A stretch of DNA of 52,796 nt, taken from NCBI GenBank assembly GCA_019677205.1, contig JAAMXY010004256.1:1-52796 (forward strand), read 5' to 3'. Under the pieces are notes generated by a model. That model made no database searches. It had not been told where the DNA came from and saw only the letters and a list, made by a program, of their open reading frames with translations. Shown here piece after piece: positions 3,001 through 43,175 of this stretch (positions within the stretch are counted from its first letter, which is position 1; each line of letters starts with the position of its first letter). A program made the position numbers and the translations under genes. Source of the DNA: Pinguiococcus pyrenoidosus (taxonomy: Eukaryota > Sar > Pinguiophyceae > Pinguiochrysidales > Pinguiochrysidaceae).

Positions 3001-6000
3001 GATATCAAGCGTGGTGGCGGCCGTTGGCGAGGGCACCTCGGAAGCGTTCGCTGCCATCCCGGCAGCCGCAGAAGGAACAGCCGAGGAGGAGGCGGCGTCT
3101 TGGGACCGTGGCTGGCCCATCGGCCGATTCGCAATGTCCGTGGAGCTTCTGAACGCGGTTGGGCTCGGTGAGCTCCTCCTCGCCAACGCGCTACCCGCCG
3201 TCCGCGACCCGGGCGGGGTGATGTAGGCGCTGTCCTCAGGCGACGAATTGCCATCTCTTGGTGAGGCAGCGACGGACGAGGCCGCCAACGCTCGACGGCC
3301 CAGCCTGGTGCGCTCTGTCAACGAGGACGCCTCGTCCCTCACGGCCCGCACGGCAGCCGAGTCGTCGCGCAGACTGGTGAGGAAGTCCTCCAGGCGGGGG
3401 TCGTCCAGCGCTCCGACGTCAATCATCGGCATCTCGGCATAGGCTGGTCTGCTCGTTTCGTCCTCCGTCGCCGCCGTCGGCGCGGGCAGTCGTTCGGCAG
3501 ACATCTGCGACATGATCGAGGGGGGAATGCCGCTGGTCAGGAACTCCACCGCCTGCTCGACCAGAGCCTCCAGGCTGCTCAAGCCGCTGCGGTTCATCGC
3601 AATCACGGCTGCAGTCACGGTCGGTCGAAGATTGTCGTTGAATCCCATGATGTGGAGCTGCTCGATGCACTGCGACACCAGTCCTCGAATGCGATCATCT
3701 CCATCCACTCGCGGGGGCGCCGCAGCGTCAGGTGCGCTTCTCGCTTCCCGCGCTGCTGTCGGCGTCGTGTCTTTCGCGGACCTATCGTCTTCGACGCTCT
3801 TCTCCCACATCGCCCGCGCTTCGAGCGCCACGTCGGCGGCAGAGGTTGCGCTCTTCACGATCCTAGCGACTCCAGGCTCGGCGCGGTCGATCTCCGCGCA
3901 GCGCAATTCATAGGCCTCTGCCTGGGCAAGTGCATTTGCGAAGCAGGACGAGTCCGTTCGAAAACAGTTATGGCACAGGATGTAGGGCGCCTTCTTGAGC
4001 GAGGTGGAGCAATATCCTCGCGCACAAGCAGCATACCGAGCGCCACACTCGCTGCAATTCCAGTCCAGGAGATCTGGGTAGCGATCGCAGACGCGGAAAA
4101 GCCTGAGCGGATGACTCGACAGCTGGTGAAGTAACCCCTGCCGGCTGAAGTTGGACGTCGTCAGCTGGATCCGCATCCCTCCTGCCTCGGATGAAGACCC
4201 CGCGTTGTCTTCGGCCTGCTTCGAGGGTGTCTGTGTCGACGACGGAGCCAGGTCCTTCCAGTGAAAGGACATGGGGGGAATGTCCGTGTAGGTGAAGGCA
4301 TATCGGTGCACCCAGGGCAGCTCCTGACCTCCCTCGAGCTCCTTCGCTCCCGCCTCGGGTGCTTGAACATCCCGCAACGACTGCGCAAGTCGGTCCGAAG
4401 CGGCCATGGACACAGGTTCGACGCAGGTGGATAGAGTGGGTCCGTCCAATGCGACGTCAATCCCGACGAATCCGCCATCGACTACCTTGAGGTGCACGCG
4501 ATGCTCCCCCGGAGAATCGCCAGCAAGGACACAAGCCCCCTCGATCAGGATGTGACTTCCGCGGCGGAACTTTCCGATCTGCCTTGCCGCCGTTCCCGAT
4601 GCATCCAGGCGTGGCACTTCGTTCTCGCACACTTCGTCTGCAAGAACGGCATAGAGTAGCGGATACTCGCTGGAGACGTACATATCGTCTTGCGATGGCT
4701 CCCCAGCTTCTGCCGAAAGGCAAACCCGCCGAACCGCGGCTTCAAACTCGCAGCGGTCGCCATCGCAGCCACCTGACTGCTCTTCAGCCGTCCCGAGGTC
4801 GCTGCTCTTCGCTTCGGCTTCCTCGTCAGGAGCGGTGGATGGAGGCGCCTCGGAACCGGCCATTGCGTGGAAGTCCAGGAATCGTGCCCATGTCTCCTGG
4901 AGGGAGTGCGTGCTCCGCAGCAGGGAGAAGTCCACGGGGTCGAACTCCAGCTCCGGCGCCTTCTCGGACGCGACAGACACTAGCGAGGCGAGCAGCTCGT
5001 GTGCGTTGAGACCCATCTCCTGCAGCGACTGCAGCTTAACCCCGGCGCAGAAGAGCCGGCAGAAGCCGCTGAGGGCGAACAATCGACAAAGTTCATCCCG
5101 CAGCAGCGTCGACCCCCCCGGGGGTGTCCTTGGTTTCAGGAAGCTGCCAAACGCTTTGACGAGCCTTCGCAGCAGGTCACCGTGCTGCGAGCTGCCTTGA
5201 AAGCCCTGCGTGAAGGACTTCTGTACGATCACCTGATAGGAAGCTTCCAGCGTCTTCTCGACCGCGCAAAGATCGTCCGTGCTGATACGAAGCCTGGTTG
5301 GTCCCCGCGCTGTCTCATTCTCGACGGAGACAAACGCCTCTCCCTGCCCGCACGGCAGTCTGTAGAGCTTCCCCGTGGACGGCGCCGCACCTCTCACAAC
5401 ACGACAAGACCCGCCTTCGAAAAGCAAATCCACTCCGCTCAGAGTCCAAAGAACCGCCAGAACACGGGCGAAGCCGGAATTGTCCATGCCATCGGCCTCC
5501 TCGGCCGCCTCAAGCACCCTGATAAGCTGAACAACGCTCCCGATCTTTGTCACTTGGTTGGGTCTTGGCGACGCAAGCTGCTGGTGCGCGATTGCCTGCA
5601 CCAGCCTGCGAAGATGTGATGCGACCGTGATCGCAACGTCTCCGGAACCGAAGCCGCTCTTGAAGTCCTGGAGGACCGGCGCTTGCTTGCCATCCGACGC
5701 AATCGCCTGCGCAAGATGACCGGAGCTTGGATCACTGCCAACCAGCAAGGGCGCAAACAACCGGTCGGCAATCACGCTCACTGCGTAGCTAACCAGGGGT
5801 CCATGCCACGAGTCCTGAGCGTCCGGAAGCAGCGGAAGCCGTGAAGCTCCTGGCTTGAGCATGTCCACGAGCCAGGCTTGCAAACCACCACGAATTGAAG
5901 CCGAGGCCATGCGAGGCGGAAGCATCCGGAGTAGCTCCGGCAACACATCAGCCGCAGTGTTCCGCACGTGTGGAAAGCGTGATTGGAGGAGGACGCAGAC

Positions 6001-9000
6001 ATGCCCGAGCATTCTCGACGCATAGTCGTGACACCTGGCCTCCGTTGCGACGCCATCCTTGCTGCCGGCGTCTTCGAGGCCCCCTGCAATTCCCACGGGG
6101 AAGACACTGAGAAAGAGCCACGGCAGAAGGCTCAGGGTCTGCGTAGCACAGGCTGCCCCGTACAGGAAATCCACAGAGCTTGCGCGTGACGGGCAGGACA
6201 GATTTTCGGAGCTTTGCGTGGCTTTTTCCAGTCGGAGCAGGCAGAACTCCATCAGTCGTTCGTTCAACCGACGCACCGCCCCTGCGTCGCCTTTGAAGAG
6301 GCGAAGAGACAGAATCAGACCGCACATCATGCGCCAGGCAATCTGCTGCAGGGACCGATTCTCCGCGAAGGTGATTCGGACTGGTGGATCCGGCTGGTAC
6401 ATCGGTTTGACGTTGCTCGCAGCTTGGTCTGCGAGGGGAGTCCTGTCAGGCAGAAGAGCGTGCTTCTGATCCCGGAGGGTGAGATAACGCTGCAACGCTT
6501 GCGTGCCTCTCTCGTCAAGAACGGCTTCCGGCATCTCGGCGAATCGATAGATGGGTCCCGCAGAGAGCGTGGCGATGGTGCACCATCCGCGAAGTCGAAT
6601 GTAAGGCTTCAGCAGCGCTCCCGACCGCAGTCGGCGGAGGTGCTTCTCCTCTATGATGGATCGACCGGCAGCAGTCGAGATCCGTTCCCCGTTCAGCGTG
6701 AAATACACTTCTAGCTGCGGGTCGGACTTCGTTGACTCCAGGCGCACGCCACATCCAAGAGTGTCATCCTGCTTGACCAGTGACGGCCACTCTGCCAGAG
6801 GCGGAGCACCGTCGGTGCTTGCCGAATGCATCCGGCGCGCCATCTGCCTCAGCACGTCAGCCATTGTGTCGCTATGCGGCATCGAGATGACGCTGCCGGT
6901 GCCTTCCGCAGGGGTTCGATTTTCTACTTCTGAGGCGTCCGTCTCGTCGCTGGCGCGGACAACGCTTCCCGCGGTCTGCTGATCGCGGCTTGAATTGGTT
7001 GAGGGCAAGCGATCGCCACTCCCCGCTATTGGCGACTGCCCAGTGGCATCCGACTCCTTCGCCTCGTTCCCTCCATGGACCGCAGTTTCATGTTCTGCGG
7101 CGCGCTCCGTGGCGCGCTCCGTGGCGCGCTCCGTGACGCTCTCCGTGACGCTTGCAATGATCTGCGTCTCATCCTCGCTGCCTGGATGCTGCGAGCGCGG
7201 GGTAGCGCCCTGGCCAGCGCTGCCTCCCGCTTGGTTTCGAGCCGATTCATCCACGCTCCACGTGTCCTCAGACTTGATGACCGCGTCCCTACTCCGGCTC
7301 AGCAAGCTCAATCCGCATGACGAATACAAGCTGGCGACCTGCTCGACGTCCGCAAATCCCCGATGAGCAAGGCGAGCCCCGTCTGCATCCTCGTCATTCT
7401 TGGTCTCCTCGTCTTCTTCGTTCCGGCTGCAGAGGACGAAGCCGACGTCGATCACAGGGTACACCAGCGCCGAGGGGACGCCGTCCGCATTTGCATCTCC
7501 TTGCCTCCGATCACTGAAGACCCCAACACAATTGCAGGTAACTTCGTAGTAGCTGACACCTACGATGCCATCCTCTTCCAGGCGCACATCGTTGGAAGCG
7601 AGGAGGTCAATGAAGCCGTCTTCGCCCCAAGCCGACCCGCGTCCGGACTGGGCCTTTCGAGCCTTGACCAGAACGCAGTTGGCCTGCTGGTCTAGAATCG
7701 ACACGTCTCCCGCAGCAGACTCGCTCAGCGTCTCATAGCTGGATATCGACGCGGTCGCGCTCTTGGCATCCCTCTCGTCTCCGTCCTCAGCTCGGATGCA
7801 CTTCATGATGGCCTTGTCCTTGTAGTTGCCGCGGACACCTCTTGTGAAGAGCCAGCCCTGCCCGCACGCCATCCTCAGAAAGGTTTGCCCTCCAGGGCAG
7901 AGGAAAGCGTCGGAGATCTCGACGATGTCCTTGTGCTGCAAGCTCACCCCCACACGGTCACTGTCTGGGCTAGGAAGGACGCGCACTCCGATTCCGTTCT
8001 TCGCCGTCACGATGTAGGTGTACCTCACGCCTCGTTCCCTGCGTCTCCGCCTGGCCGAAGTGGCGGCCCTGGCTCGGATCTGCTTCACCTCGCTCTTGAT
8101 TCGGTGGACAGCCCGCCGGGCAACGATCCGGAAGGCGTCCTCGTACCTCAGGAGCTGAGAACTCACGCTGGAGAAGGGCGAGCCTTCTCTTCCATTGCAG
8201 CCTTCGCCGGTGTCTCGAACGGACGGCGACGCTGGGCGAGGGGAGACGAGACCCTCTGCACCGTCCACGAGGTCCTTCAAGGACCTCAGATCAAGTCGAC
8301 ACTGCAGAAGATTGCGCCGCAGGGAGGCCGGATCAAAGAGGTATGCTCGCGCATACTCCCACGGCGCAGCGGCGTTGGCGAAGGGAACGGCGGCATCTCG
8401 CAGGCAGACAAGCACCTTGAGGCTTTCCCAGAAGGCCTGCAGCCTCTCCGGATCTCCGAAGGCGAGCTTCGAGAGATGACCTCGATCGCCGGCGAAGGCG
8501 CTCAGAGCCATGATCGTCACGTGAAGGAGAAGCGTCAGGGCCGCCGGCGAGGCCTTGCACCCTCTGCCATCCTTCGACATGTCCCGCGCGTAGCTTTGCA
8601 TCAGGCTCCCGAACTGGTCCATCAGGGCTTCACTGATCTTCTCCCGTTCGCTCACAGCGCGATGCAAGAGCTGTCGCTCAGCTCCGAGCAGCTCGAGGCC
8701 GCTGTTCGACGTGGAGGCCGCATCCAGAGCCACGCGAAGACTGATCATCACGTCGTAGAGCGATGACCAGTGCGCGGACTGCCTCAGCTCCTGCCGTCCA
8801 AAGAAGGTGAGGAAGCCGTGCAAGATCTTGAGACCCCTGATGCGGCTTCGAGCGTCCGTGTCGCTCTCGTGCAGCACGCGTGCCAGCTCGACGGGACTGG
8901 GGACCGGGCCGCTCGCCTTTGCCGGGGCTCCAAACTCGATCGATGCAAGCATGCTCTCCTCGCCGTCGCAGGCCTCCCAGCTCCGCAGGCCAGATCCGCT

Positions 9001-12000
9001 GCGCAGGCCCCCGCGGATGAAGCGCAGCACGACAGAGATCGGCTTTGCTGACTCTTCGCTGTCTCCCACTTCCTTCGTGTGGGAGCAAGACGCGAAGGAG
9101 AGAAGGATCTTACTGAGTCCAACCGCTGACAGCACTTCGTCCTTGAAGCATGTCTCCCACAGCGGCACCGCCGTGAGCCGTCGGAGCTCTTCCGAATGCT
9201 GAACGGTGCTGGAGTCATCCGAAGCCTGCGTGCGGACGCTCGATGTGTCCTGCGAAGAGATCCTCGACGCATTGCTGCTCGCCTCTCTCCGCCTCGCGTG
9301 ACCAGCCCTGACGCCGTGCTGACGAAAGCCAAGGATCCTTTCAACGGGAAGCGACCGCAATTCCGGCTCCTTCAGATCGTGAATCCCGGCCGCGGCGCTC
9401 TCAGCCTTGCTCTCCGACACCTCCATTTCGTTCTTGACCTCCTCCGTTTCATCGAATTCCGACGTCTCCGGGTCCGAGTCGGTCTCTGGAACTGATGCAC
9501 CACCTCGGAGGGCAGACAAGCGCTCGTGCTCCGGAACTGCCGGCCCCTGCGGCTCCCCAAGAACACTTGACGTGGTGGACACCGCTTCCACCGCTTCCCC
9601 GGCTTCCGCTTCTTCCGCTCCCACGCTTGCAATGGAGGGGCTGGGCCCCTGTTGCGCACGTGCGATGCGTCCCTCTGACAGAAAGAGCGCGTCCTCCGGG
9701 ACGGTGGTCGCCGACTCGATGATCTCAAAGCCAAGGTTCTCGTGCGAGAAGTGACTCTCGGCCTCCGAGGCAGCGTCCTCGTTCACCGCATCTTCGAAAC
9801 TCTCGGCACTTGAGCTGTCCCTCCTCACGGACGTCGATCGACTTCCAAGTTCGCGGCGCCGCCCGAGTTCGTGAATCGAGCCGCTGAACGGGCGGACAGT
9901 GCCAACGAGACCTGAAAACATGCCTTCCTCGGCGTCGTGGGCAGCGTCCTCCATAGTGCTGTGGATGCGAGCCTGCGCAAGGCCATCCGTTGTCTCAAGC
10001 TGCGCCCTCAGCGACTGGCGCCGGAACCGAAGGTCCGTGCGCAAGTCGGCCAACCTCCTCCAGATCCTCCAGATGGGCTCCGGCACGGAGGGGCCTTCTC
10101 TGTACACATGGTCAGGCAGGTCGGCCGTATGACCGAGAGCCGCGATGTCATACGTCTCGATGCCGTCCATCTGATGCAATGCGGCCAGCTGAGCAACGAG
10201 ACTGCACAAGTCGGAGAAGGCTCGCGTGTGGTGCGCGGCGGCGACCATCAGCATCAGCTCCGGCACCAAGAAATACTGAAGGACCGATCGCCTGCTGCCA
10301 TGGGAGACGCGGACACTGCTGCCGTGAAGGTACGAGAACAAGAGGTGGCAGTTCGCCCGGGTGAAGTCGCTCGGCAAGCCAAGCTCTTCCCAGCTGACGG
10401 CGCACTTCCTCAGGGAATCTCGAAATTCGTCCGGCCTGACGGGCTGCCGCCTGCCATGCTGGAAGAGTTCGCGGAAGGAGAGAAGCTTGCGAGCGCTGCG
10501 CTTCAGCTCCTCCCTCCCGCGAATCAGAGAGATTGCTCCGCGGCAGGCCCAATGGCCATAGCTGCGCAGAATGTCAACTCCCCAGGGCAACACGAAGGTT
10601 GACCTTGCCACACCGCCGCCGCTGATAGACACGCTGTCCTTGCCGCTACCAATCGCCACGTACGGGCGGACTTCAGCATGTCTCGCGAGGAAGGACGCAC
10701 CTGGACCGCTCTCCGCTATCAGGGGTGCCAGTAGCTTCCCGTTCAGGTGCAGAACCAGGATACCGCGGGTGGAGTCGAACTCCAAGAGGAACACGTCCCC
10801 GGAGGAGACCGTTCTGCCTGGACGGAGTGACGAAGACGCAGCCGGGCCGAGATCCACTTTCTCCCCATCGATCCAAAGGGTGCCGTCGCTGCGCCAGCCC
10901 AAGCTCCCGGGCACGGAACCGGGAGGCAGATGAGCGCACGCCTTCGTGACTGCTGCCGTCTCGATGAGCCCGAATCCGAGAGAGCCGCTCGTTGTTGCGT
11001 CCACGCGAACTCGCAAGACGTGCTTCCCGATGGACCTGGTCCAGCAGTTCGCCAGGATCACTCCAAACCAGGTCGGGCCCGAACGCCCAGAGGGCGAGTC
11101 TCCGGCATGACACGAGGACGACTCGTCCCGGTTTGCTTCGATCTGAAACCGAGGCCGCAGCGATATGCCGCAGTCGGTATGCTCATACACCAGCTCGGTG
11201 GGAACCTCAAGCAGGTCCACCAGACACGGAGAGCGGTGCAACTGCTTCCTCAGCTCGATTCCGAAAGCACTCGGTGGGATGGACACCCCCGACGACTGTG
11301 GACAGCGGGCCGAACGCTGTATGCTGCGGCAGGGCAGAGTGAAGAGCGAGGCCTCGGTCCGACACTCGAGATCCACGTCGCTGGCTTGATCTTGAACCTC
11401 CACGGAGGCTATCCGGACCTTGATCCCGGCACGGTACGTGACGACGCACGGATAAATCGGACCGGTGACATCCGAGAACCCATGCGGTTGCCGTTCACCG
11501 TTGACGAAAAATACAATACTCCCCGTGTGCAAGTTCACTTCCACCCGTACCCGATCGCCGGGGTGCACCTTCGAGTTCATGCCCAGCCCGGAGGTGCCGT
11601 TGTGGTAGAGCTGGCCATTGAAGGCCCGGAACAGCCACATGCGATTGCTCGTCTCGTAGTTGGCATTCTGAAGCGGCAGCAGCGCTGCACCAAACAAGCT
11701 GCACTCGTCTTCCAACGTATCCACCTCCAGGCAGAACTCCCACGACCCGCAGCACGGTCCGTTGGGGAGGCCAAAACCCAGCGTCCCGCAGCAGTACTGG
11801 TTTCCATTGCTTGAGCTGCTGAGCAGCGCGTCTCCCTGATTCAACTCTATTGCGTCACTGTGCTGCTTGGGATCAAAGCGGGCGTCCTCCATGACATGCA
11901 CGTCCGGAGACGCTTCGCTCCGTGGAGTCGTGAGGTCCGAGAAGCGGTAGTGCGACAGGCAAGCCAGCATCTCTTCGGATTGCTCCAGGCCGGGGAGGCG

Positions 12001-15000
12001 GACCACGAGACTGTGGCATGACCTCATGAGCTTGGAGATCGGATCGAACAGATCCTCGAAGACGTCCAGGCCGATATCCGCCGAGGTGATAATCGGGAGC
12101 ACGCTATTCACGATGCTCCCTTGCAGGTAGGCCTCCGCCTCAGCTGGCGAAAGGCGACTGGCGTCAACCGATGTGAGCATCGTCTCAAAAATGCCGCTCA
12201 GCTGCTCAAAGAGATGGCCTAGGCATGTTCGCAGGAACGAGTTTCCGCCTCGGCCAGCCGGTCCTCGGAGCTCCGCCGCGGCCCCTCCAGGCGCGGAGTC
12301 CTTCGCCCCGCCGCCTTCCTCGTCCTTGTAGGAGAACAGCGTGTGCCTCACAATCCCCTCGAGCACTCGCTGAGCAGAGCTCAGGATTCCCGTATGGAGG
12401 GAGGGAGGAGGGTTGATGGGCGACCTTTCACCCACCAGCTCGTCCAAACGGAGCTGATCCAGTGCCAAGAGACTAGCGAGCAGCTTCTCCAGGGCTTGCG
12501 AGAAGGATCCGCCGGGCAAGCAGCCATGCTGCAAGCGTCGCTGCTCCAGAAGGCCTTTCAAGCCTGTGTCTGTGCCGTAGTGCCACAGCAGTCTGTGAAG
12601 AAGGACGCAGCGGCCTTTCCCGGCGTCCCCTGTCGCCGTCCCACACTCGAGTTTGTGCTGGATGAGCTGGCAGAGCAGCTCACACTGCTCCTCGAAGTGC
12701 GGGTAGAGAAAGTGGACGCCGACTGCCATTGCCTCCGCCGATGCGTTCCTGAGCCGTGCCGAGGACGCCTCCGCCGTCATGAGATATCCGATGCACTGGC
12801 GAAGGTCAACCATCAGCTCCGGCTCGTGCGCCGCAGGCGCGGATCCGAAATCCAGTGGTGCCGCCGTGCGGGATGGCCGCATCAGCCCAACGTCCAGCGG
12901 CTGCAGCCGCGAGCGCATGAGGCACTGGAAGTTCGCCCGGGCTAGATTCAAAATCGACAGCTGGAGGTCCTCCCGCATGGCGGCGTCGACCTTGATCTGA
13001 TCCACATCGCCGCAGCAACGGAGCAGACTCGTCAGTTGTGTGAAGGTCCTCGCATTGGGCTGCAGCGCAAAAGGAGTGTAGACCTCCTCCGGGTCGACGT
13101 CCGCGGGCGTGTGGCCCTCTTCCTCCCGACTGGGGGAACCTGACGGACTGGCGAAGACCTCGCCACAAAACCTCGCCGTGTGCTGCTGCTTCACCGCCTG
13201 AAGGCTCGGAACAGGCTGCTGTATGGACGCAAGCGACGAGCATCTCCTCAGAAGGGCGCTTGCGATCTCGATCTGGCTATCAATCTCCTCGTGGTCTTGA
13301 TCTACGGGGCTGTCCGCTTCGTTCTCGCAGGGCTGCCCACAGCAGAAGCAGGCCTTACAGTTCTTGGTACTTACAAAGCCACACTTGCGGCATCTCCAGC
13401 CTTCCGACAGCTTTAGCTGCGTCTTGATGTCATCCTCCGTCGCCTTCCGGATGTTCTTGTCGTTCTCGAAAAAGAAGAGGGTCGTCCGGACCGCATCGCC
13501 TGCGCCCTTGAAGTCGCCATCCCCAGCGTCCTCGTCGTAGGCCGGGGACGTTCGCACGAAGGCCTGGAGTCCCTGTTGCACGTCTTGGTGCCAGAAGCCA
13601 ACCCAGTGGTTCCCGTGCGCGCGGTACCACAGGCGACCGAGTCCATGACGCCGCCTGTTGCGCAGGAATCCTTCCCATTTCTTCCGGCCGAACTCGTCGT
13701 CCGCTCCGAAGTATCGCACGCCTGGCCCCCCTTCCGCCTTCACGCTCGTGAGCCCGAGGAACCTCACACTGCGGTTCGCGCCATAGAAGCTGACCGCCGG
13801 GAAGACGTCACCCTTCACATTGGTGAAACAGACCCCTTGGTCGAACTCGTCGTTGATGCAGTAGCTGAGCGTGTGCTTCTCGCAGTCCAAAGTCACCGTG
13901 ACCTTGTCGCCGGGGTGGATCCGTTCTTTCGGGCTAGCGATGTGGTTTCCACGGGCGTAGAGATTGCCGTTGTAGCATCGATACATCCACAAGCACGTGC
14001 TGGACGTGTAGCTGCTGCTGGTCACGGGCTTGACGGCCGCGCCGAGGCAGATCGTCTCGTCGTTCTTCACGTCCTGCTCAATCTTGAAGTCCCAAGCCCA
14101 GACACCCGTGTTGAACGACCGGCTGAGCAGAGCGTGGCTGTGCGAGCTCGTGTTGCACTTGGCCAGCGTGTTTCCGTCCTGAAGCGCCACACCAGAAGTG
14201 GACGTCGCTTCGGGGTCGAACGAAACGCTTCCGATCTGCATGAGGACGGAGTCGCTGTTTTGCGCCAGCTTGCCGCGAAGGTCGCGTTGTTCCCGCTGCA
14301 TCACCTCGAGGCAGTACCAGGCGGCAAGCTTCATCTGATAGAAGCCCTGAGAGGTGTCCGGACGGTCTCGCCGAGGCCCCGTGGCTGCCTGGTGCAAGAG
14401 CGACTCGACGATCCGCAAGGCGCAGGTGAGAGTCGCCGCCGCGCTGGTGAGCCGGAGCATTCCCGTCATGGCCCGTTCCACGAGGCTCTTCTCGGCGGCA
14501 ATCCTGCTGTACCAGTCGTAGAGCTGCTCCACAAGGTGCGAAACGTCGATCGCCGAGGCCTGCTTGTCCTCCGTGCGGACCTCCACGGAGCAGATGGACG
14601 CCTTTCCCTTGTTCGGCACGCCAGCCGATTCCTCCATCGTGAGCTTCACTGCCCACACCGTCCGCGACGCACCCTTGGCCCCGGCGGCAGCCGGAGATCT
14701 GTGTCGCTCTCGGAGCTCCAGCAGCTGGGAGCACCTGATCGTGGTGCCGCTGCGAAGCTCCGCGGCGGGAACCTGGTCGAGATCAATGGAAGCGAAGTGC
14801 TCGTACCCCTCGTTGGAGAGGAGGTCCTGCTCGCCGCCGCGCGCCACCAGCTCGTGGTCGGTGTACTTCAGATGCGCCACCACGCGCTTGGGCGCCAGGA
14901 CGAGGGTGTCGTTCTCGTGCCATCGCACAAAGATCGAGCTAACTTCCCGGACCTTGGAGTGCAGCTCATTCAGGCGGCAGGCCCAGGATCGCGAGGAGCC

Positions 15001-15879
15001 CTTGCGAGGTGTCGCAGTGCTTTGCCAGTATGTGGTGGCGTCGGCCGTTGCGGCATTCCTCGCAGGGAATCCCGGGTCGGTAGCCGTGGCCACGGCCGTC
15101 TCCGGCACGAGGGGAATGGCTTTCTCGAGCGCTTCCTTCGGCACGGTGCAGTCCTTGAACAGGCAGAGAGGCGGAAAGGAAGCGATCTGCTGTTCCAGCA
15201 TCGTCAAGGGAGCTTGCAGAAGGTCCGGGCCGATCTGGGGTACGGCATCGGCGAGAATCCCCAGCGAAGAGATGCACACGGTGTTGAGGCTGAAGGACAG
15301 CCGGGTCTCCGAGTCCGCCTCCACCGGTCGAGGAGGCGGTGCGAGGCGCAGCTTCCGATAGGCCTGGCGAGAGAGCTGCCGCTGCGCCTGCTCGTGATCC
15401 CGAAGGATCTCCACGAGCCGCTGGCGCTTGCCGAGCACCGCGTGATGGTCCACCAGCGGCACGAGCGCGGCGTGCGGGAGGGACAATACTTCCCGCGCCG
15501 CACTGTCCACGAGGTTCGTCATCGCCGCCTCGTCCGCTTCCTCCTCCTCCTCTTCCTCCTCCTCCTCCTCGTTGGCTTCGCCCGATTTCCGGAAGCGCTG
15601 CAGACACACCTCCATGGCACCCTCGTCGTCACGAGCAGGAAAGGCCCAGGAGGTGGAGGGCGCGCGATCCTCCTCCGCGATGGCGTCGATCTGGCTCAGC
15701 AGCTCGGGAGAACATAGACTCCTTTGCAGCATGTGAGCGAAAAGCTCGTGCTTCTTCGCCTCCTCCCAGGAAAGCCCTTGGATCCACGCCGGGGGCTGCA
15801 GCTTGGGCACTTCTCGGCCGCCGGACTCGGCCGAACTCGCCCCCTGGAGGCGGGATTTCCGCCGCGCGCGGGTCCTCAT
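1..15879 (-). CDS. Giant SPRY / zinc-finger / UBA protein, probable E3 ubiquitin ligase N-terminal part (partial)
   Basis: One frame is open from the ATG at 15879 to base 1: 5,293 codons, no stop, no visible intron, C-terminus outside the window. I checked every triplet in this frame. An in-frame TGA lies at 15894-15892, five codons upstream, so the start is firm. Seen in order: an acidic Glu run (about residue 110); a SPRY-like domain (about 585-710); a MORN-like stretch EFGRKKWEGF (about 730); a four-Cys RanBP2-type finger WRCRKCGFVSTKNCKACF (about 827-850); a second SPRY (about 1364-1487); a third ConA-like domain (about 1610-1775); a fourth SPRY-like domain (about 3050-3135); a Cys cluster WNCSECGARYAACARGYC (about 3940); a UBA-like segment with IEQLHIMGFNDN (about 4064-4115); and more CxxC clusters near 4870-4940. 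SPRY, RanBP2 fingers and UBA occur together in giant HECT-type ligases, so a HECT or other catalytic domain is expected beyond the left edge. It is not visible, so the enzyme class is inference. A 12-bp in-frame repeat lies near 7100-7150. Confidence 0.85.
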   Translation of the reverse strand, partial: MRTRARRKSRLQGASSAESGGREVPKLQPPAWIQGLSWEEAKKHELFAHMLQRSLCSPELLSQIDAIAEEDRAPSTSWAFPARDDEGAMEVCLQRFRKSGEANEEEEEEEEEEEADEAAMTNLVDSAAREVLSLPHAALVPLVDHHAVLGKRQRLVEILRDHEQAQRQLSRQAYRKLRLAPPPRPVEADSETRLSFSLNTVCISSLGILADAVPQIGPDLLQAPLTMLEQQIASFPPLCLFKDCTVPKEALEKAIPLVPETAVATATDPGFPARNAATADATTYWQSTATPRKGSSRSWACRLNELHSKVREVSSIFVRWHENDTLVLAPKRVVAHLKYTDHELVARGGEQDLLSNEGYEHFASIDLDQVPAAELRSGTTIRCSQLLELRERHRSPAAAGAKGASRTVWAVKLTMEESAGVPNKGKASICSVEVRTEDKQASAIDVSHLVEQLYDWYSRIAAEKSLVERAMTGMLRLTSAAATLTCALRIVESLLHQAATGPRRDRPDTSQGFYQMKLAAWYCLEVMQREQRDLRGKLAQNSDSVLMQIGSVSFDPEATSTSGVALQDGNTLAKCNTSSHSHALLSRSFNTGVWAWDFKIEQDVKNDETICLGAAVKPVTSSSYTSSTCLWMYRCYNGNLYARGNHIASPKERIHPGDKVTVTLDCEKHTLSYCINDEFDQGVCFTNVKGDVFPAVSFYGANRSVRFLGLTSVKAEGGPGVRYFGADDEFGRKKWEGFLRNRRRHGLGRLWYRAHGNHWVGFWHQDVQQGLQAFVRTSPAYDEDAGDGDFKGAGDAVRTTLFFFENDKNIRKATEDDIKTQLKLSEGWRCRKCGFVSTKNCKACFCCGQPCENEADSPVDQDHEEIDSQIEIASALLRRCSSLASIQQPVPSLQAVKQQHTARFCGEVFASPSGSPSREEEGHTPADVDPEEVYTPFALQPNARTFTQLTSLLRCCGDVDQIKVDAAMREDLQLSILNLARANFQCLMRSRLQPLDVGLMRPSRTAAPLDFGSAPAAHEPELMVDLRQCIGYLMTAEASSARLRNASAEAMAVGVHFLYPHFEEQCELLCQLIQHKLECGTATGDAGKGRCVLLHRLLWHYGTDTGLKGLLEQRRLQHGCLPGGSFSQALEKLLASLLALDQLRLDELVGERSPINPPPSLHTGILSSAQRVLEGIVRHTLFSYKDEEGGGAKDSAPGGAAAELRGPAGRGGNSFLRTCLGHLFEQLSGIFETMLTSVDASRLSPAEAEAYLQGSIVNSVLPIITSADIGLDVFEDLFDPISKLMRSCHSLVVRLPGLEQSEEMLACLSHYRFSDLTTPRSEASPDVHVMEDARFDPKQHSDAIELNQGDALLSSSSNGNQYCCGTLGFGLPNGPCCGSWEFCLEVDTLEDECSLFGAALLPLQNANYETSNRMWLFRAFNGQLYHNGTSGLGMNSKVHPGDRVRVEVNLHTGSIVFFVNGERQPHGFSDVTGPIYPCVVTYRAGIKVRIASVEVQDQASDVDLECRTEASLFTLPCRSIQRSARCPQSSGVSIPPSAFGIELRKQLHRSPCLVDLLEVPTELVYEHTDCGISLRPRFQIEANRDESSSCHAGDSPSGRSGPTWFGVILANCWTRSIGKHVLRVRVDATTSGSLGFGLIETAAVTKACAHLPPGSVPGSLGWRSDGTLWIDGEKVDLGPAASSSLRPGRTVSSGDVFLLEFDSTRGILVLHLNGKLLAPLIAESGPGASFLARHAEVRPYVAIGSGKDSVSISGGGVARSTFVLPWGVDILRSYGHWACRGAISLIRGREELKRSARKLLSFRELFQHGRRQPVRPDEFRDSLRKCAVSWEELGLPSDFTRANCHLLFSYLHGSSVRVSHGSRRSVLQYFLVPELMLMVAAAHHTRAFSDLCSLVAQLAALHQMDGIETYDIAALGHTADLPDHVYREGPSVPEPIWRIWRRLADLRTDLRFRRQSLRAQLETTDGLAQARIHSTMEDAAHDAEEGMFSGLVGTVRPFSGSIHELGRRRELGSRSTSVRRDSSSAESFEDAVNEDAASEAESHFSHENLGFEIIESATTVPEDALFLSEGRIARAQQGPSPSIASVGAEEAEAGEAVEAVSTTSSVLGEPQGPAVPEHERLSALRGGASVPETDSDPETSEFDETEEVKNEMEVSESKAESAAAGIHDLKEPELRSLPVERILGFRQHGVRAGHARRREASSNASRISSQDTSSVRTQASDDSSTVQHSEELRRLTAVPLWETCFKDEVLSAVGLSKILLSFASCSHTKEVGDSEESAKPISVVLRFIRGGLRSGSGLRSWEACDGEESMLASIEFGAPAKASGPVPSPVELARVLHESDTDARSRIRGLKILHGFLTFFGRQELRQSAHWSSLYDVMISLRVALDAASTSNSGLELLGAERQLLHRAVSEREKISEALMDQFGSLMQSYARDMSKDGRGCKASPAALTLLLHVTIMALSAFAGDRGHLSKLAFGDPERLQAFWESLKVLVCLRDAAVPFANAAAPWEYARAYLFDPASLRRNLLQCRLDLRSLKDLVDGAEGLVSPRPASPSVRDTGEGCNGREGSPFSSVSSQLLRYEDAFRIVARRAVHRIKSEVKQIRARAATSARRRRRERGVRYTYIVTAKNGIGVRVLPSPDSDRVGVSLQHKDIVEISDAFLCPGGQTFLRMACGQGWLFTRGVRGNYKDKAIMKCIRAEDGDERDAKSATASISSYETLSESAAGDVSILDQQANCVLVKARKAQSGRGSAWGEDGFIDLLASNDVRLEEDGIVGVSYYEVTCNCVGVFSDRRQGDANADGVPSALVYPVIDVGFVLCSRNEEDEETKNDEDADGARLAHRGFADVEQVASLYSSCGLSLLSRSRDAVIKSEDTWSVDESARNQAGGSAGQGATPRSQHPGSEDETQIIASVTESVTERATERATERAAEHETAVHGGNEAKESDATGQSPIAGSGDRLPSTNSSRDQQTAGSVVRASDETDASEVENRTPAEGTGSVISMPHSDTMADVLRQMARRMHSASTDGAPPLAEWPSLVKQDDTLGCGVRLESTKSDPQLEVYFTLNGERISTAAGRSIIEEKHLRRLRSGALLKPYIRLRGWCTIATLSAGPIYRFAEMPEAVLDERGTQALQRYLTLRDQKHALLPDRTPLADQAASNVKPMYQPDPPVRITFAENRSLQQIAWRMMCGLILSLRLFKGDAGAVRRLNERLMEFCLLRLEKATQSSENLSCPSRASSVDFLYGAACATQTLSLLPWLFLSVFPVGIAGGLEDAGSKDGVATEARCHDYASRMLGHVCVLLQSRFPHVRNTAADVLPELLRMLPPRMASASIRGGLQAWLVDMLKPGASRLPLLPDAQDSWHGPLVSYAVSVIADRLFAPLLVGSDPSSGHLAQAIASDGKQAPVLQDFKSGFGSGDVAITVASHLRRLVQAIAHQQLASPRPNQVTKIGSVVQLIRVLEAAEEADGMDNSGFARVLAVLWTLSGVDLLFEGGSCRVVRGAAPSTGKLYRLPCGQGEAFVSVENETARGPTRLRISTDDLCAVEKTLEASYQVIVQKSFTQGFQGSSQHGDLLRRLVKAFGSFLKPRTPPGGSTLLRDELCRLFALSGFCRLFCAGVKLQSLQEMGLNAHELLASLVSVASEKAPELEFDPVDFSLLRSTHSLQETWARFLDFHAMAGSEAPPSTAPDEEAEAKSSDLGTAEEQSGGCDGDRCEFEAAVRRVCLSAEAGEPSQDDMYVSSEYPLLYAVLADEVCENEVPRLDASGTAARQIGKFRRGSHILIEGACVLAGDSPGEHRVHLKVVDGGFVGIDVALDGPTLSTCVEPVSMAASDRLAQSLRDVQAPEAGAKELEGGQELPWVHRYAFTYTDIPPMSFHWKDLAPSSTQTPSKQAEDNAGSSSEAGGMRIQLTTSNFSRQGLLHQLSSHPLRLFRVCDRYPDLLDWNCSECGARYAACARGYCSTSLKKAPYILCHNCFRTDSSCFANALAQAEAYELRCAEIDRAEPGVARIVKSATSAADVALEARAMWEKSVEDDRSAKDTTPTAAREARSAPDAAAPPRVDGDDRIRGLVSQCIEQLHIMGFNDNLRPTVTAAVIAMNRSGLSSLEALVEQAVEFLTSGIPPSIMSQMSAERLPAPTAATEDETSRPAYAEMPMIDVGALDDPRLEDFLTSLRDDSAAVRAVRDEASSLTERTRLGRRALAASSVAASPRDGNSSPEDSAYITPPGSRTAGSALARRSSPSPTAFRSSTDIANRPMGQPRSQDAASSSAVPSAAAGMAANASEVPSPTAATTLDIAAGADEGVAFAIDGGMPLEDQRGTAQIGPRPSTARGRDLSSAGNPAHARFQREQSEDRLTAPIPVLVPEVDEVERSSMSESRRRDSGAYSSPPPPAPLLRQGPEITSAGMNADDFMRRSEVAAGADESDANDTSDVNSEAPSDADEVAEGSEAAGDEDDGATVASRQSAVSNNSGSDVLNEEDFPYPEFDGYDDYDGTDGRDEPPPPAFPILERRPSSVDGRSRSPVDGAMVLGSPRSSVGFTGLVGAEPLAPPERPTSASDSSPVAQTSTQIGASGHAEEGRNRVSDSEDDFSPPPGSTRRPIEVSKILDEGGRHRVSDLAFEEKASGATPRCMTRAVDCCDDEALGHVPPAKESVRHMQSACLASKTIFSLNACRSAIEFAHGDLAEAEQWLHRHAETLCPDTTIYSSTYSCLGFRSARRPLLARAEAPDEGQPRSDGESDALNSMWLDCEDKSPPVQQEGQPEQGQASANAATSKQTLESMMIPDLHRTGGYPYSSAHTAAEAVEWASRDLRIGSSAEDKGKARASLDDREVVAPLNPRRSVQGPRSTILRSIAPRKESSGHRTFAAIRCLTCNYIEFPGCSAHKQILGVRKDNGHAKCSVCSTATSTSAPWSTGCRLCKGPTSIIFLNMTLPETEFALKAFPSFARGSAEDTVRTHLLICSHCGAAAFPGIGGLSPSLAVDLSQSSGPRFCLAGSGKCFEKKDYEPLLEHVDGCDNAGGQLCAVPISLSFSEAKYLSQTAAAVPMHAFKRQASKRSGGGDGAKGGFSPRLICCTSAEAGLSQGLPGPAGVLLQPSVQPPDDPSEQRGKRRGVAAQGSVDTSDEDWQRLWMAGVVSVLNTKDASTNGSSAPVSSPRTPSFSVRDLDDGNVALARSSSSLVIKPPSEEDNGCRRVLLEMLDTSNGLVLPVFLSSKHALHVTEVCGVNVATDARPSLMLALKGTVRALSISWCRMMFQQISGAFLSDEVLPSATPADAEVALRPDLRIDTIVAMWLSSQ

Positions 15880-39121: not shown

Positions 39122-39574
39122 GGGAAGACGAGAGTAGCATGCTAGAATGGCGAGAGCGACATGTTTTAGACGGGGCGCTAGTTTTCACACCAGGGGAAAG
39201 GCCAAAGGTCAAAGGCCAAAAGCCAAAGGCCAAAGGCCAACGGCCAAACGCCAAACGCCAAAGGCCAAAGACCAAAGGCCAAACGCCAAACGCCAACGGC
39301 CAAACGCCAACGGCCAAAAGCCAAACGCCAAAGGCCAAAAGCCAAGGGCCAAACGCCAAAGGCCAAAAGCCAACGGCCAAAAGCCAAAGGCCGAACGCCG
39401 AAAGCCAAAAGCCAAGGGCGAAAGACTTGCACTGCGGAGTGAAGACCAAAACCATGGTGCTTCGGCAGGGAGGAAGAAGAACAACAACGAAGGGCGATTT
39501 GATGCTCCGTTTGATGCTTCATTGAATGTTTGGCTTTTTGGTTTGTGTCTCCGTTTGTAGTGTCTTCCTTTTGA
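39122..39574. other. Convergent spacer between peroxiredoxin and RNA repair gene
   Basis: This 453-bp spacer between two 3' ends is filled mostly by the heptamer array listed separately. The remainder, 39430-39574, contains short direct repeats (TTTGATGCTCCG, TTTGATGCTTC) but no gene. Confidence 0.6.
39191..39422. repeat. 7-bp minisatellite GCCAAAN, about 33 units
   Basis: A nearly continuous array of heptamers of form (G/C)CCAAA(A/G/C), with AACG variants. Because 7 is not a multiple of 3, a 21-bp period appears in every frame as a Lys/Pro/Gln-rich peptide (AKGQRPK-like) on the plus strand and a Phe/Leu/Trp-rich one on the minus strand. These are artefacts of the array. Confidence 0.95.
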
Positions 39575-42500
39575 TCAACGTCTTGGGTACGGCACGGTCA
39601 AACCCTCACTCGGGGGATCGACACCAAAGGAGCGCAGCAGCTTCTCGGCGTCTTCGGCGTCTCGGACTGTGAACACCCTTCCAAAGCCCTCGACGCGCTG
39701 TGGCGGCTCGAGCTTCTCGGCAAAGCTTCGCACGATCTTGCCCGCGCGCTTGGAGTGCTGGCGAATGCTCGGGTGATTGGGCCTCGCACTGACCCGCTGG
39801 ACACAGACATCGACTGGCACGTCAAAGAAGATCGCCGCACAGTGCGCAGGGTTCGGACGGTGCATCAGGGCAAGCCACTCCTTTCGCTCGGCAGCGGTGA
39901 CGTTGCAGCGATCGAGCACGCAGCGCTCTTGGGCGTTGCGGCATCGGCCGGCCATTTCCTCCGCGACTTGACGGCCAGAATCATCCTGGGAAATCCGCGT
40001 CCATCCACTCCTGTCCAAGAACGATGCAAACGTGGACTTGCCGGAGCCCGGAATTCCCACAAGAACGATGGCCGACGGCGCTCTCTTTCGCAGCTTTTTC
40101 CTGGCTTGCGCGGTGGAGCGCTCCTGTCGGCCCAGCCTTCTGTTGCTCGATGCGTGCTCATGCTGCAGCGACGTGCGCTGACTCTTGAAGGACTCGAGCA
40201 TCTGCAGCGCAGCGGATGCCCGCGTCGCCTCGGTGCCCGCAGTCGAGAGCAAGATCGTCTTCACGACGCCCTTCTCCTCCTGCGAGATCAAGCCCGTCCG
40301 GCAATCCTGGCTGACCTGCTTCAAGAGCGACGGAAGCTCCGGAGGGGGACGATCGTCTGCACTGCCCTCGTCATCGTCTATCACAATGGGGTCCCGGCGG
40401 CTGCCGTCTTCCGGCAGCCGCCGTGAAGCAGGGGGCTTCTCCTCGCCGGAATCGAACGACGCAGTGCGCCAGAGGTGCTCGGCATAGGTCCTGAGGAACT
40501 CTTCCTGGCACCGACTCTCCATGCTGTGCGGCCGCTTGCTCCGAAGCAGGCGGATGGCCTCGTTCGACGCCATGGCGGTCCCGATCGTCGCTAGTGTGGA
40601 CTCGTTGATGCCGTCGACGCCGAAGCGTAGGAGAAGGCAGGCGGCCACGGTGCCAGCACGCCCCACTCCTGCCATGCAGTGCAGCAGCACCTTGCCTCGC
40701 CTCCGCACTGCATCGGTGACTCGGCGCAGGATGAGATCCACCTGCTCCACCGTCGGAGGATGAAAGTCCAGCACTGGCACATACAGGTTCTCTATGACCT
40801 TCTCGTCGCGCGGGCCGAACCACTCCGGCGGCAGGCGCCGCTCCTCCGTCAGGCTGACCACCAGCGTGAAGCCGATCTCCCGCAGCGCTCGGATGTGCCC
40901 CTCGTGCTTCGGGATGGCGCTGACGGCTACCTGATCCGCAAAGAGGAAGGAGAAGTTCCTCTGCATGTTGATCTTCCGGTCAAAGTGCACCGTGCGACCG
41001 GGACCCGGATGCACGGTTTCCTTCACTGTCACGTGGTAGCTCAGACTTGGATCCTCCCCGAAGCCCTCCTGCACCATGGGCGGACGCGGGCGCATGTCGC
41101 TGATCGGCTCCTCGCTGATGGCGCCACTCTCCTCGTCTGGAGCACTGGGCAAAGCCTCCTTGGTGTCTGGAGCCTCGGAATACGCGTCGTACCCAAGCTT
41201 GAACTGATGATCGACCGCGTTCTTCTTCTGCATGGTCGCGGTCCAGTGGAACATGAGGCCTTGGACAAAGTCGCGCCTGACCACCTTGCACCGCCGGACT
41301 CCCGCCTCCGTTTCCGTTCGCAGATACACCCCCTCCTTGCAGCCGTCCCTGAAGAGCGAAGGCGTATCGAGGATCTCCAGCAGCTCCTGCTTGCTGAGGC
41401 AGGCCTTCTTGGCGAGGATGGGGACGACCGGTATCCGAGTGGGCCGCAACGTCGCATGGAGCTCTTGTCGGGTGAAGAACCTCTCCGCGTATCGGTCGTA
41501 GAGATCAAAGGCCACGAAGTAGCCAGGTAGCCGCGTATACTGGAGCGAGTGCGTGATCGCGCACCACTCGCCGAAGAGGATGTGGCGCTCGGGCTCAAGG
41601 ATGTCTCGAAGCGCAGCGCCGAACTCCTCCGCCCACAGAGGCAGCTTCGCGAACTGGGCTTGGCTCTTGCTCGTGACGTAGTGGGATCTGTTCTGGAAGA
41701 GGAAGTCCCCATTCGAGGCAATCGATATGCCCAGGTTGGCGCCGTCGATCTTCTCTTCGACGAACACGACCACGCCGGAGTCGAGAAAGTGCCTGGCATC
41801 ATCTTGGCTCAGCAGCAGATCATCCCGCGTCACCGCGTCCCCCCCGGTATCCATGAGGTGCGCCGTCCTCGGGAACTTGAAGAAGGCTCCCAAGTGCGGG
41901 GCGAGGCCGAGCTGCTCACGGCAGTGCCTGGACGTGCGCAGCAGATGGATCCGCTTCTCAAGGTCCTCCCGCGGCAAGATCGACAGCGCTCGCTGGATAT
42001 CCTCCATCGCCTCCGCAAACTGCAGCAGCTTCACGCGGACCAACGCCCGCGTCGCAAGGCACTCTGCGTTCTCCCCCGCCGTCAGGCGGATCATCTCGTC
42101 CGCACAGGGGAGGGCTTCCTCGTAGCTGTTCTGAGCCGCGAGCAGCTTGCAGCGCAACCGCAGCAGCTTCACTTGCCACGGACGCCGCTGCGCTTCGTCT
42201 GCCACCACCTGCAGCATTCCAAGCAGCCGCAACAGCTCCTCACTCCGATCTGCCTCATTGACGTGCACAACCAGGGCGCCAAGGAGCCCCCGAAACGCCA
42301 GCGCCTCGGGGATCCTCACGCCGCCGCCGATCAAGGACGCGACGCCCTTGGGCTGGGAGTGCACATCGGCGCCGGCGAAACCCAGCGTGCAGTGCAGGTC
42401 TTTCCAGGGAAGTCCAATGTCTCTCCGCCAAAGCGCCGCAGCGGGCCAGCAAAGCACCAGAAAGGCGCATTTTTGCTTGCTCTGCTTCTCCTCGGCGGTT

Positions 42501-42787
42501 CCGATGCCCAGATCCGCCCACGAACTGTCCACCAAAGCTTGTGCGGACGCCACAGCACCTTGAAGGCCTCCGGAAAGGCCTCGCAGCTCCTGCGCGTGGA
42601 CCAAAGTCACGTGAACGTCTTCACCGTCGCGATAGCGGCGGTTCTGTGCCCAATTCTCGGACCAGTCCGCGAGAGCGCCGCCCTCCAGCTGAGCCGTCGC
42701 TGCATCTGCGGCGCTCTTCAGCGCCGCAGACGAGTAGAAGACACAGCCCTTACAGGCATACACGCGAGCGCTGGCCGACATGGCCAT
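39575..42787 (-). CDS. Five-module RNA repair protein: 2H phosphodiesterase, TPR-like, RNA ligase, DSP phosphatase, polynucleotide kinase
   Basis: Single exon, 1,070 residues, starting MAMSASARVY. In order: a 2H phosphoesterase-like domain with two HxT motifs (HVT at 59-61, HCT at 132-134), the type that opens 2',3'-cyclic phosphates; a TPR-like helical region (about 175-290); an RNA ligase with motif I EEKIDGANLG (nucleotidyl Lys346), LFGEWCA (about 404-410), EGVYLRTE and CKVVRRDF; a dual-specificity phosphatase with acid loop PVLDFHPPT and HCMAGVGRAGT (Cys704, Arg710); and a P-loop kinase with GIPGSGKST (911-919), SQDD and LDRCNVTAAER. The kinase resembles the PNK-like domain of plant aprataxin-type proteins. 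Yeast and plant tRNA ligases have ligase, kinase and phosphodiesterase in another order and no DSP. Inferred role: heal and seal broken RNA ends, the DSP perhaps removing end phosphates. All catalytic motifs look intact. tRNA splicing or stress-cleavage repair are both possible. Confidence 0.87.
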   Translation of the reverse strand: MAMSASARVYACKGCVFYSSAALKSAADAATAQLEGGALADWSENWAQNRRYRDGEDVHVTLVHAQELRGLSGGLQGAVASAQALVDSSWADLGIGTAEEKQSKQKCAFLVLCWPAAALWRRDIGLPWKDLHCTLGFAGADVHSQPKGVASLIGGGVRIPEALAFRGLLGALVVHVNEADRSEELLRLLGMLQVVADEAQRRPWQVKLLRLRCKLLAAQNSYEEALPCADEMIRLTAGENAECLATRALVRVKLLQFAEAMEDIQRALSILPREDLEKRIHLLRTSRHCREQLGLAPHLGAFFKFPRTAHLMDTGGDAVTRDDLLLSQDDARHFLDSGVVVFVEEKIDGANLGISIASNGDFLFQNRSHYVTSKSQAQFAKLPLWAEEFGAALRDILEPERHILFGEWCAITHSLQYTRLPGYFVAFDLYDRYAERFFTRQELHATLRPTRIPVVPILAKKACLSKQELLEILDTPSLFRDGCKEGVYLRTETEAGVRRCKVVRRDFVQGLMFHWTATMQKKNAVDHQFKLGYDAYSEAPDTKEALPSAPDEESGAISEEPISDMRPRPPMVQEGFGEDPSLSYHVTVKETVHPGPGRTVHFDRKINMQRNFSFLFADQVAVSAIPKHEGHIRALREIGFTLVVSLTEERRLPPEWFGPRDEKVIENLYVPVLDFHPPTVEQVDLILRRVTDAVRRRGKVLLHCMAGVGRAGTVAACLLLRFGVDGINESTLATIGTAMASNEAIRLLRSKRPHSMESRCQEEFLRTYAEHLWRTASFDSGEEKPPASRRLPEDGSRRDPIVIDDDEGSADDRPPPELPSLLKQVSQDCRTGLISQEEKGVVKTILLSTAGTEATRASAALQMLESFKSQRTSLQHEHASSNRRLGRQERSTAQARKKLRKRAPSAIVLVGIPGSGKSTFASFLDRSGWTRISQDDSGRQVAEEMAGRCRNAQERCVLDRCNVTAAERKEWLALMHRPNPAHCAAIFFDVPVDVCVQRVSARPNHPSIRQHSKRAGKIVRSFAEKLEPPQRVEGFGRVFTVRDAEDAEKLLRSFGVDPPSEGLTVPYPRR

Positions 42788-43175
42788 CGCCCGGAGGACC
42801 TCACGTCTGAGTGCACCGGCGCTGAGAGAGAGAGAGAGAGAGATGGGAGCGGAAAAGCCGCAGAAACAGTAGTCAGCGAACTCGATGGAACGGCGCTGGA
42901 GAGCAGTCAGAAAATTTTAGAGAATTCTGTGGAAAGGTGAAACCAGAAAGGCTCTCGGAAAGTTCCTGTGTTGTCGTAATTTCAGAATGTGGCGTGCACC
43001 ATATCATATGATAATATTTTATAAAAATATTATTTTTATGTAGCGTATATTAGCTCTTTTACTTTTTAATTCACTGATTTGATTCGGATTTGGTTTCTGG
43101 TTTCTGGTTTCTGTTCTCACTTGTTGTGCCTTTCGCGCCCTTTTGGGAGCGCTGTGGGGCCCTCGTTTCGGGGCC
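42788..43175. promoter_or_regulatory. Bidirectional promoter with AT-rich island and (GA)n tract
   Basis: Spacer between the divergent RNA repair and hydroxylase starts. A GA dinucleotide run sits at about 42824-42843, and a strong AT-rich island at about 43000-43075 includes ATATTTTATAAAAATATT, a near-palindromic TATA-like block. A TTTCTGGTTTCTGGTTTC direct repeat follows at about 43092. Confidence 0.55.

Follow-up and report, generated by a model that had tools for sequence, protein, structure and literature searches.

A probable all-in-one RNA end-healing and sealing enzyme of the Swiss Army Knife family in Pinguiococcus pyrenoidosus

The fungal Trl1 and plant RNL enzymes have the domain order ligase, kinase, 2H, and the Pfam family PF09511 covers the ligase domain of Trl1. 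The passages on these enzymes in PMC3400036 describe a single chain in which a ligase is combined with a P-loop kinase and a 2H-type cyclic phosphodiesterase; the three domains come without a separate phosphatase, and the 2'-phosphate junction is resolved by Tpt1. T4 Pnkp and Rnl1, together with the RNA repair genes of large phage-like contigs, also bring a kinase, an end phosphatase and a ligase together, in this case on separate genes.

The name Swiss Army Knife (SAK) reportedly comes from work by Burroughs and Aravind in 2016 and 2023. It stands in the Pfam names 2H-SAK and PTP-SAK, where SAK means Swiss Army Knife protein, and as these models are named for the architecture, the architecture had been recognised by the time they were made. 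"Swiss-army-knife-like" is applied to a phage HAD phosphatase in PMC9503650, which cites Burroughs and Aravind 2016, and in passages of PMC11090510 and PMC12419801 the family appears in reference-list entries only. Searches of the open-licence literature returned no experimental work on it.

The window analysed here, the whole stretch of 52,796 nucleotides of contig JAAMXY010004256.1 from Pinguiococcus pyrenoidosus, carries a gene whose product, judged by its sequence, is a new member of this known family and not a new kind of machine. Like Trl1 and RNL, the protein combines a ligase, a P-loop kinase and a 2H domain in one chain, and its kinase bears a weak likeness to theirs (tRNA_lig_kinase, 14.2 bits, under the cut-off of 22.7); unlike them, it has a built-in end phosphatase of the PTP-SAK type. 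Its ligase matches PF09414, and PF09511 is not listed for the protein at E values up to 10, with the proviso that the HMMER filters drop most weak matches. The T4-like systems differ from it in their separate genes and, on the viral contig L007, in a HAD phosphatase where the protein has a 2H domain and a Cys-based phosphatase; Pfam lists neither a HAD nor a PNK3P match in it. A sequence-only reading of this DNA had also set the protein against systems that rely on a separate Tpt1, a contrast which is weakened by the finding that the same assembly encodes a Tpt1 frame (E 1.4e-50).

The frame and its catalytic domains

In the ORF check of the window the gene is an uninterrupted minus-strand frame of 1070 codons from an ATG start (1113 codons from stop to stop), laid out as follows.

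39575..42787, minus strand: whole frame, 1070 aa, in the order 2H, (TPR), RNA ligase, DSP-type phosphatase, polynucleotide kinase
42314..42694, minus strand: 2H phosphoesterase domain, aa 32-158, Pfam 2H-SAK match
41966..42169, minus strand: weak TPR-like helices, aa about 207-274, sub-threshold TPR_2
41231..41875, minus strand: RNA ligase (nucleotidyltransferase) domain, aa 305-519, Pfam RNA_ligase match
41750-41752, minus strand: presumed adenylation Lys346, within the RNA ligase domain
40463..40999, minus strand: DSP/PTP-type phosphatase domain, aa 597-775, Pfam PTP-SAK match
40766-40768, minus strand: presumed general acid Asp674, lined up with solved PTPs
40676-40678, minus strand: phosphatase Cys704, in the CX5R loop
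40091..40462, minus strand: phosphatase-kinase linker, aa 776-899, blank in Pfam over aa 776-889 and poorly aligned to relatives
39608..40090, minus strand: P-loop polynucleotide kinase domain, aa 900-1060, AAA_33 match
40034-40057, minus strand: kinase P-loop, aa 911-918

Four Pfam models match above their cut-off of 27 bits: 2H-SAK (PF22547) at aa 45-143 (2.4e-16, 60.6 bits), RNA_ligase (PF09414) at aa 341-503 (3.1e-26, 93 bits), PTP-SAK (PF22784) at aa 610-764 (1.6e-31, 109.8 bits) and AAA_33 (PF13671) at aa 907-1009 (2.2e-12, 47.9 bits). They bear out the single frame with 2H, ligase, phosphatase and kinase in that order which the sequence-only reading had described, and the residues that it had assigned to a ligase (320-515) and to a phosphatase (600-770) do have the corresponding similarity. 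Its TPR-like helices survive in part: a TPR unit is found in the claimed place, at aa 241-273 (TPR_2, E 2.4e-4), only below threshold with 21.4 bits against a cut-off of 27, and the remaining TPR models are weaker still. The motifs are intact, as had been claimed, with HVT at 59-61 and HCT at 132-134 in the 2H domain, EKIDGAN and GEW (406-408) in the ligase, and HCMAGVGR, which holds Cys704 and Arg710, in the phosphatase; Cys704 had been placed correctly, as had Lys346 within EKIDGAN.

It is scarcely credible that such a frame arose by chance fusion of separate genes or through misassembly. The relatives P0003 and P0012 cover 94% and 97% of the query, which excludes a chance frame, and the same four-domain order recurs in P0001, P0003, P0010 and P0012, each a single frame from metagenome or transcript collections. 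Seven relatives from the mmetsp and eukprot collections (P0005-P0008, P0010, P0012 and P0014) likewise carry their domains in one frame, with all four present in six of them and the kinase absent from P0014. About 35 bases ahead of the ATG, at 42822-42849 on the minus strand, a CT-rich run with a terminal CAG resembles a splice acceptor by eye and could be a leader intron or a trans-splicing site.

Place in the SAK family and origin of the ligase

Searching with the query retrieved 27 proteins, and an alignment of ten relatives, used as a second probe, retrieved 54, 49 of them not in the first set, making 76 proteins plus the query; both searches scored only the approximately 8,000 candidates sharing most words, and these counts are thus lower bounds. 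When the 77 sequences were scored with profiles made from the query and its first 27 relatives, all four catalytic domains were found in 61, which implies that their combination in one chain has been kept. A wholly new architecture was rejected on these numbers and on the existing Pfam names, and with it goes the "distinct eukaryotic RNA repair machine" of the sequence-only reading. The commonest order is 2H-PTP-PNK-LIG (51/77), followed by 2H-LIG-PTP-PNK, to which the query belongs, and 2H-LIG-LIG-PTP-PNK (5/77 each), LIG-PTP-PNK and PTP-PNK-LIG (three sequences each), and 2H-LIG-PTP, LIG-PNK-LIG, 2H-LIG, LIG-PTP-LIG-PNK and 2H-PTP-PNK (one each); five sequences have single-domain matches only (four PNK, one PTP). 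Some of the partial members may be fragments.

The query therefore meets the SAK proteins in having PF22547, PF22784, a PF09414 ligase and an AAA_33 kinase, all over cut-off, and departs from most of them in that its ligase lies between the 2H domain and the phosphatase, as it does in only 10 of the 61 four-domain sequences, five of which have a second ligase. By sequence this layout is a minority form and not unique; the query's type of order is also found in both proteins from Rhodomonas, one of them without the kinase. Among the carriers of the family that the source collections name are fungi (Tulasnella, Rhizoctonia, Pleurotus and a dothideomycete), a haptophyte (Diacronema lutheri), cryptophytes (two Rhodomonas species) and Chilomastix. 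In one relative, P0004, an RWD domain sits between phosphatase and kinase (residues 469-570). A label as a defence system was rejected, since PADLOC matched none of the three proteins submitted to it (the query, P0022 and P0005).

Conservation within the family alignment follows the expected active sites. Of 64 rows, 63 have the first His of the 2H domain, the remaining row being gapped there, and all have the second; the counts are for Lys346 of the ligase 70/71 (one gap), for the Cys and Arg of the phosphatase loop 71/71 and for the P-loop Lys of the kinase 74/74; the later ligase motifs are found in 60-62 of 71 rows, nine rows being gapped in that region. Among solved structures the kinase matches the Rhizopus kinase 9d8a (7.7e-17) and, at about 5.5e-5, Pnkp kinases; a literature search on the PDB codes 9d8a and 9drz gave nothing relevant by title. 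The top profile matches of the ligase are 3qwu, deposited as "DNA ligase" (7.8e-7), and 8uce, "ATP dependent DNA ligase" (1.9e-5), and the Naegleria gruberi RNA ligase 5cot (2.9e-4) and the ATP-dependent RNA ligase 5d1o (1.2e-3) are weak matches. As DNA-ligase-labelled entries come out on top, the ligase match by itself is no proof of an RNA substrate.

Of 72 rows, a short viral one was dropped and the other 71 made up the ligase tree, which included 27 of 80 genome loci, picked by number and all bacterial. SAK-type ligases from the query and 27 relatives form one group with a single viral ligase (29 rows, support 93/81, below the tool's starred level), a grouping that points to shared descent of the query with the other members. 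This group joins free-standing bacterial PF09414 ligases, the closest outside relatives of the domain (38-43% identity in the seven bacterial rows aligned and 37% in the one archaeal row), which differ in being separate genes; two ligases from phage-like contigs adjoin on a long branch (94/80). Beside such free-standing ligases no 2H, PTP or PNK match was found at the 80 genome loci, many of them short, that were kept from the 185 encoding a relative. The simplest reading of these sequences would be a single fusion event, after which the domain order was reshuffled; on a tree of 26 proteins at least two changes of order are needed.

Viral contigs hold related arrangements. On L005 a 2H+PTP+PNK gene (6001-7698, plus strand) and a separate SAK-type ligase gene (7676-8449, minus strand) overlap at their ends, and to judge by sequence the pair amounts to this enzyme divided over two genes. 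L007 (2679-11775) and L008 (780-10703), which are about 267 and 268 kb long, each encode two kinases and a pair of PF09414-like ligases of two types. In P0005-P0009 the second ligase, and in P0015 one of the ligases, belongs to a different type and groups with the ligase of these two contigs that lies apart from the SAK group (8 rows, 100/98). On L007 both kinases carry a HAD phosphatase, and nearby genes include a ligase of the T4 Rnl1 type and a metallophosphatase.

Proposed healing route and the two forms of the phosphatase

Domain calls, domain order and motifs together support RNA end healing and sealing, as the sequence-only reading had supposed, and we consider it probable that the query is an all-in-one enzyme of this kind within the SAK family. 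Each reaction, the order of the steps and the RNA substrate are taken by analogy from the known chemistry of the families. The starting break would be an RNA with a 2',3'-cyclic phosphate and a 5'-OH end; the 2H domain would open the ring, most likely to a 2'-phosphate, which the Cys704 phosphatase would remove to give a 2',3'-diol, while the P-loop kinase would phosphorylate the 5'-OH and the ligase would join the ends by way of Lys346-AMP. A protein that carries out every step of RNA repair would make a compact tool.

Removal of the end phosphate by the phosphatase domain is plausible. In the part of PMC3400036 that deals with these ends, the 2H domains of yeast and plant tRNA ligases are described as leaving a 2'-phosphate, which those ligases typically require, and T4 ends as being healed to a 2',3'-diol ahead of sealing. 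The presence of a phosphatase in the query's own chain agrees with the T4-like way, in which a diol is made before sealing. A point against is that, with the phosphatase acting before ligation, Tpt1, which the genome also encodes, would not be needed for the products of the query.

The phosphatase domain is of two active-site types, as far as sequence can tell, one with Asp and one with Asn. Asp674 aligns with the D of the IPDF stretch in solved PTPs such as 5z5b, a position which we take to be that of the general acid of PTPs. In the 71 aligned phosphatases it is Asp in 48, the query included, and Asn in 23. All 22 rows with the loop CGGGKGR have Asn, and 48 of the 49 rows with other loops have Asp, the exception being P0019, in which Asn goes with a Gly replacing the loop His. 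The query's own loop, CMAGVGR, occurs in no other row, and its pairing with Asp674 sets the query apart from every other phosphatase of the alignment. Among the proteins in which the ligase precedes the phosphatase, the query alone has Asp; its nearest relatives, P0001, P0002 and P0004, each have Asn. A sequencing error is unlikely since the query's phosphatase has several differences. This tells against the proposed route: with Asn in the place of the presumed general acid in 23 of 71 domains, some of the family may not hydrolyse phosphate at the phosphatase step.

A tree of the ligase, kinase and 2H domains, built from 26 of 28 sequences (P0015 and P0027, which have no phosphatase, were left out), places the query in a set of four rows, three Asn and one Asp, at 100/100, and thus favours a switch back from Asn to Asp674 in the query. 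Alternatively, Asp may have been kept in the query's lineage and lost repeatedly elsewhere: the phosphatase tree leaves the branching around the query unsettled and has, in P0057, a further Asp form with an Asn sister. Replacement of the phosphatase domain is not favoured, the query clustering with 13 Asn-type members that have the ligase before the phosphatase (14 rows, 86/94) in a tree made without the motif columns.

What the phosphatase acts on, and what the whole enzyme is for, each allow more than one answer. Its nearest solved relatives by sequence are 5z5b, deposited as a protein-tyrosine phosphatase (4e-15), and DUSP23 (2img, 1.2e-12), as would suit a domain whose substrate is a protein or small nucleotide and not an RNA end, for instance in regulating the repair enzyme; we think this improbable, given that 61 of 77 sequences have the domain in one chain with the 2H domain, the ligase and the kinase, and that a Pfam family of its own, PTP-SAK, is named after the architecture. 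A more far-reaching idea, which we put forward as speculation and hold to be unlikely, is that the SAK phosphatase removes 2'-phosphates from RNA without metal or NAD, in place of Tpt1, and does so in two catalytic forms, one with the usual Asp general acid and one with an Asn tied to CGGGKGR, the lineage in the window having reverted to Asp with a loop of its own. If true, this return to Asp with its own loop would mark a changed end chemistry. The Asp/Asn split itself offers natural variants with which the way 2'-phosphates are removed without Tpt1 becomes directly testable.

Another reading holds that the query is the routine tRNA-splicing ligase of the organism and not a damage-repair enzyme, joining tRNA halves while Tpt1 clears a 2'-phosphate that escaped the phosphatase. 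The assembly (23.7 Mb in 768 contigs, searched exon by exon) has a partial match to a tRNA-splicing endonuclease model (positions 1-49 of 85) alongside its Tpt1 frame, RtcB was not found in it by the exon-wise search, whose control was positive in 9 of 14 genomes, and the query is its sole PF09414 match. These blanks are weak, as matching was exon by exon and no completeness figure is available; a ligase of the plant or fungal type may be present, the blank PF09511 search of the assembly having had an equally silent control, and the in-chain phosphatase would itself clear the 2'-phosphate that makes Tpt1 necessary. Routine splicing thus seems to us a minority view, if one that deserves some weight, and end healing and sealing by a SAK enzyme remains the preferred account.

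Genomic surroundings

Elsewhere in the assembly the PTP-SAK model has five weaker matches, four of them over cut-off, and there is a separate AAA_33 kinase frame. In the window the neighbours of the gene are a Vms1-like release factor, a myotubularin-like phosphatase, a piece of a peroxiredoxin and a giant SPRY-containing frame. Among the best 120 of 229 matches of the Vms1-like neighbour, the top one besides itself is an MMETSP transcript at 52%, and the nearest named organisms are stramenopiles (Odontella aurita at 32%, and Phytophthora species). From their sequences the neighbouring frames look unrelated, do not form a repair cluster and fit a eukaryotic host. The giant frame is open for 5293 codons at 1-15879 on the minus strand, running off the window, and has SPRY matches in its scanned part (8880-15879). 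Just downstream of the gene, at about 39200-39455, short imperfect repeats of the GGCCTTTGGC kind can be made out by eye.
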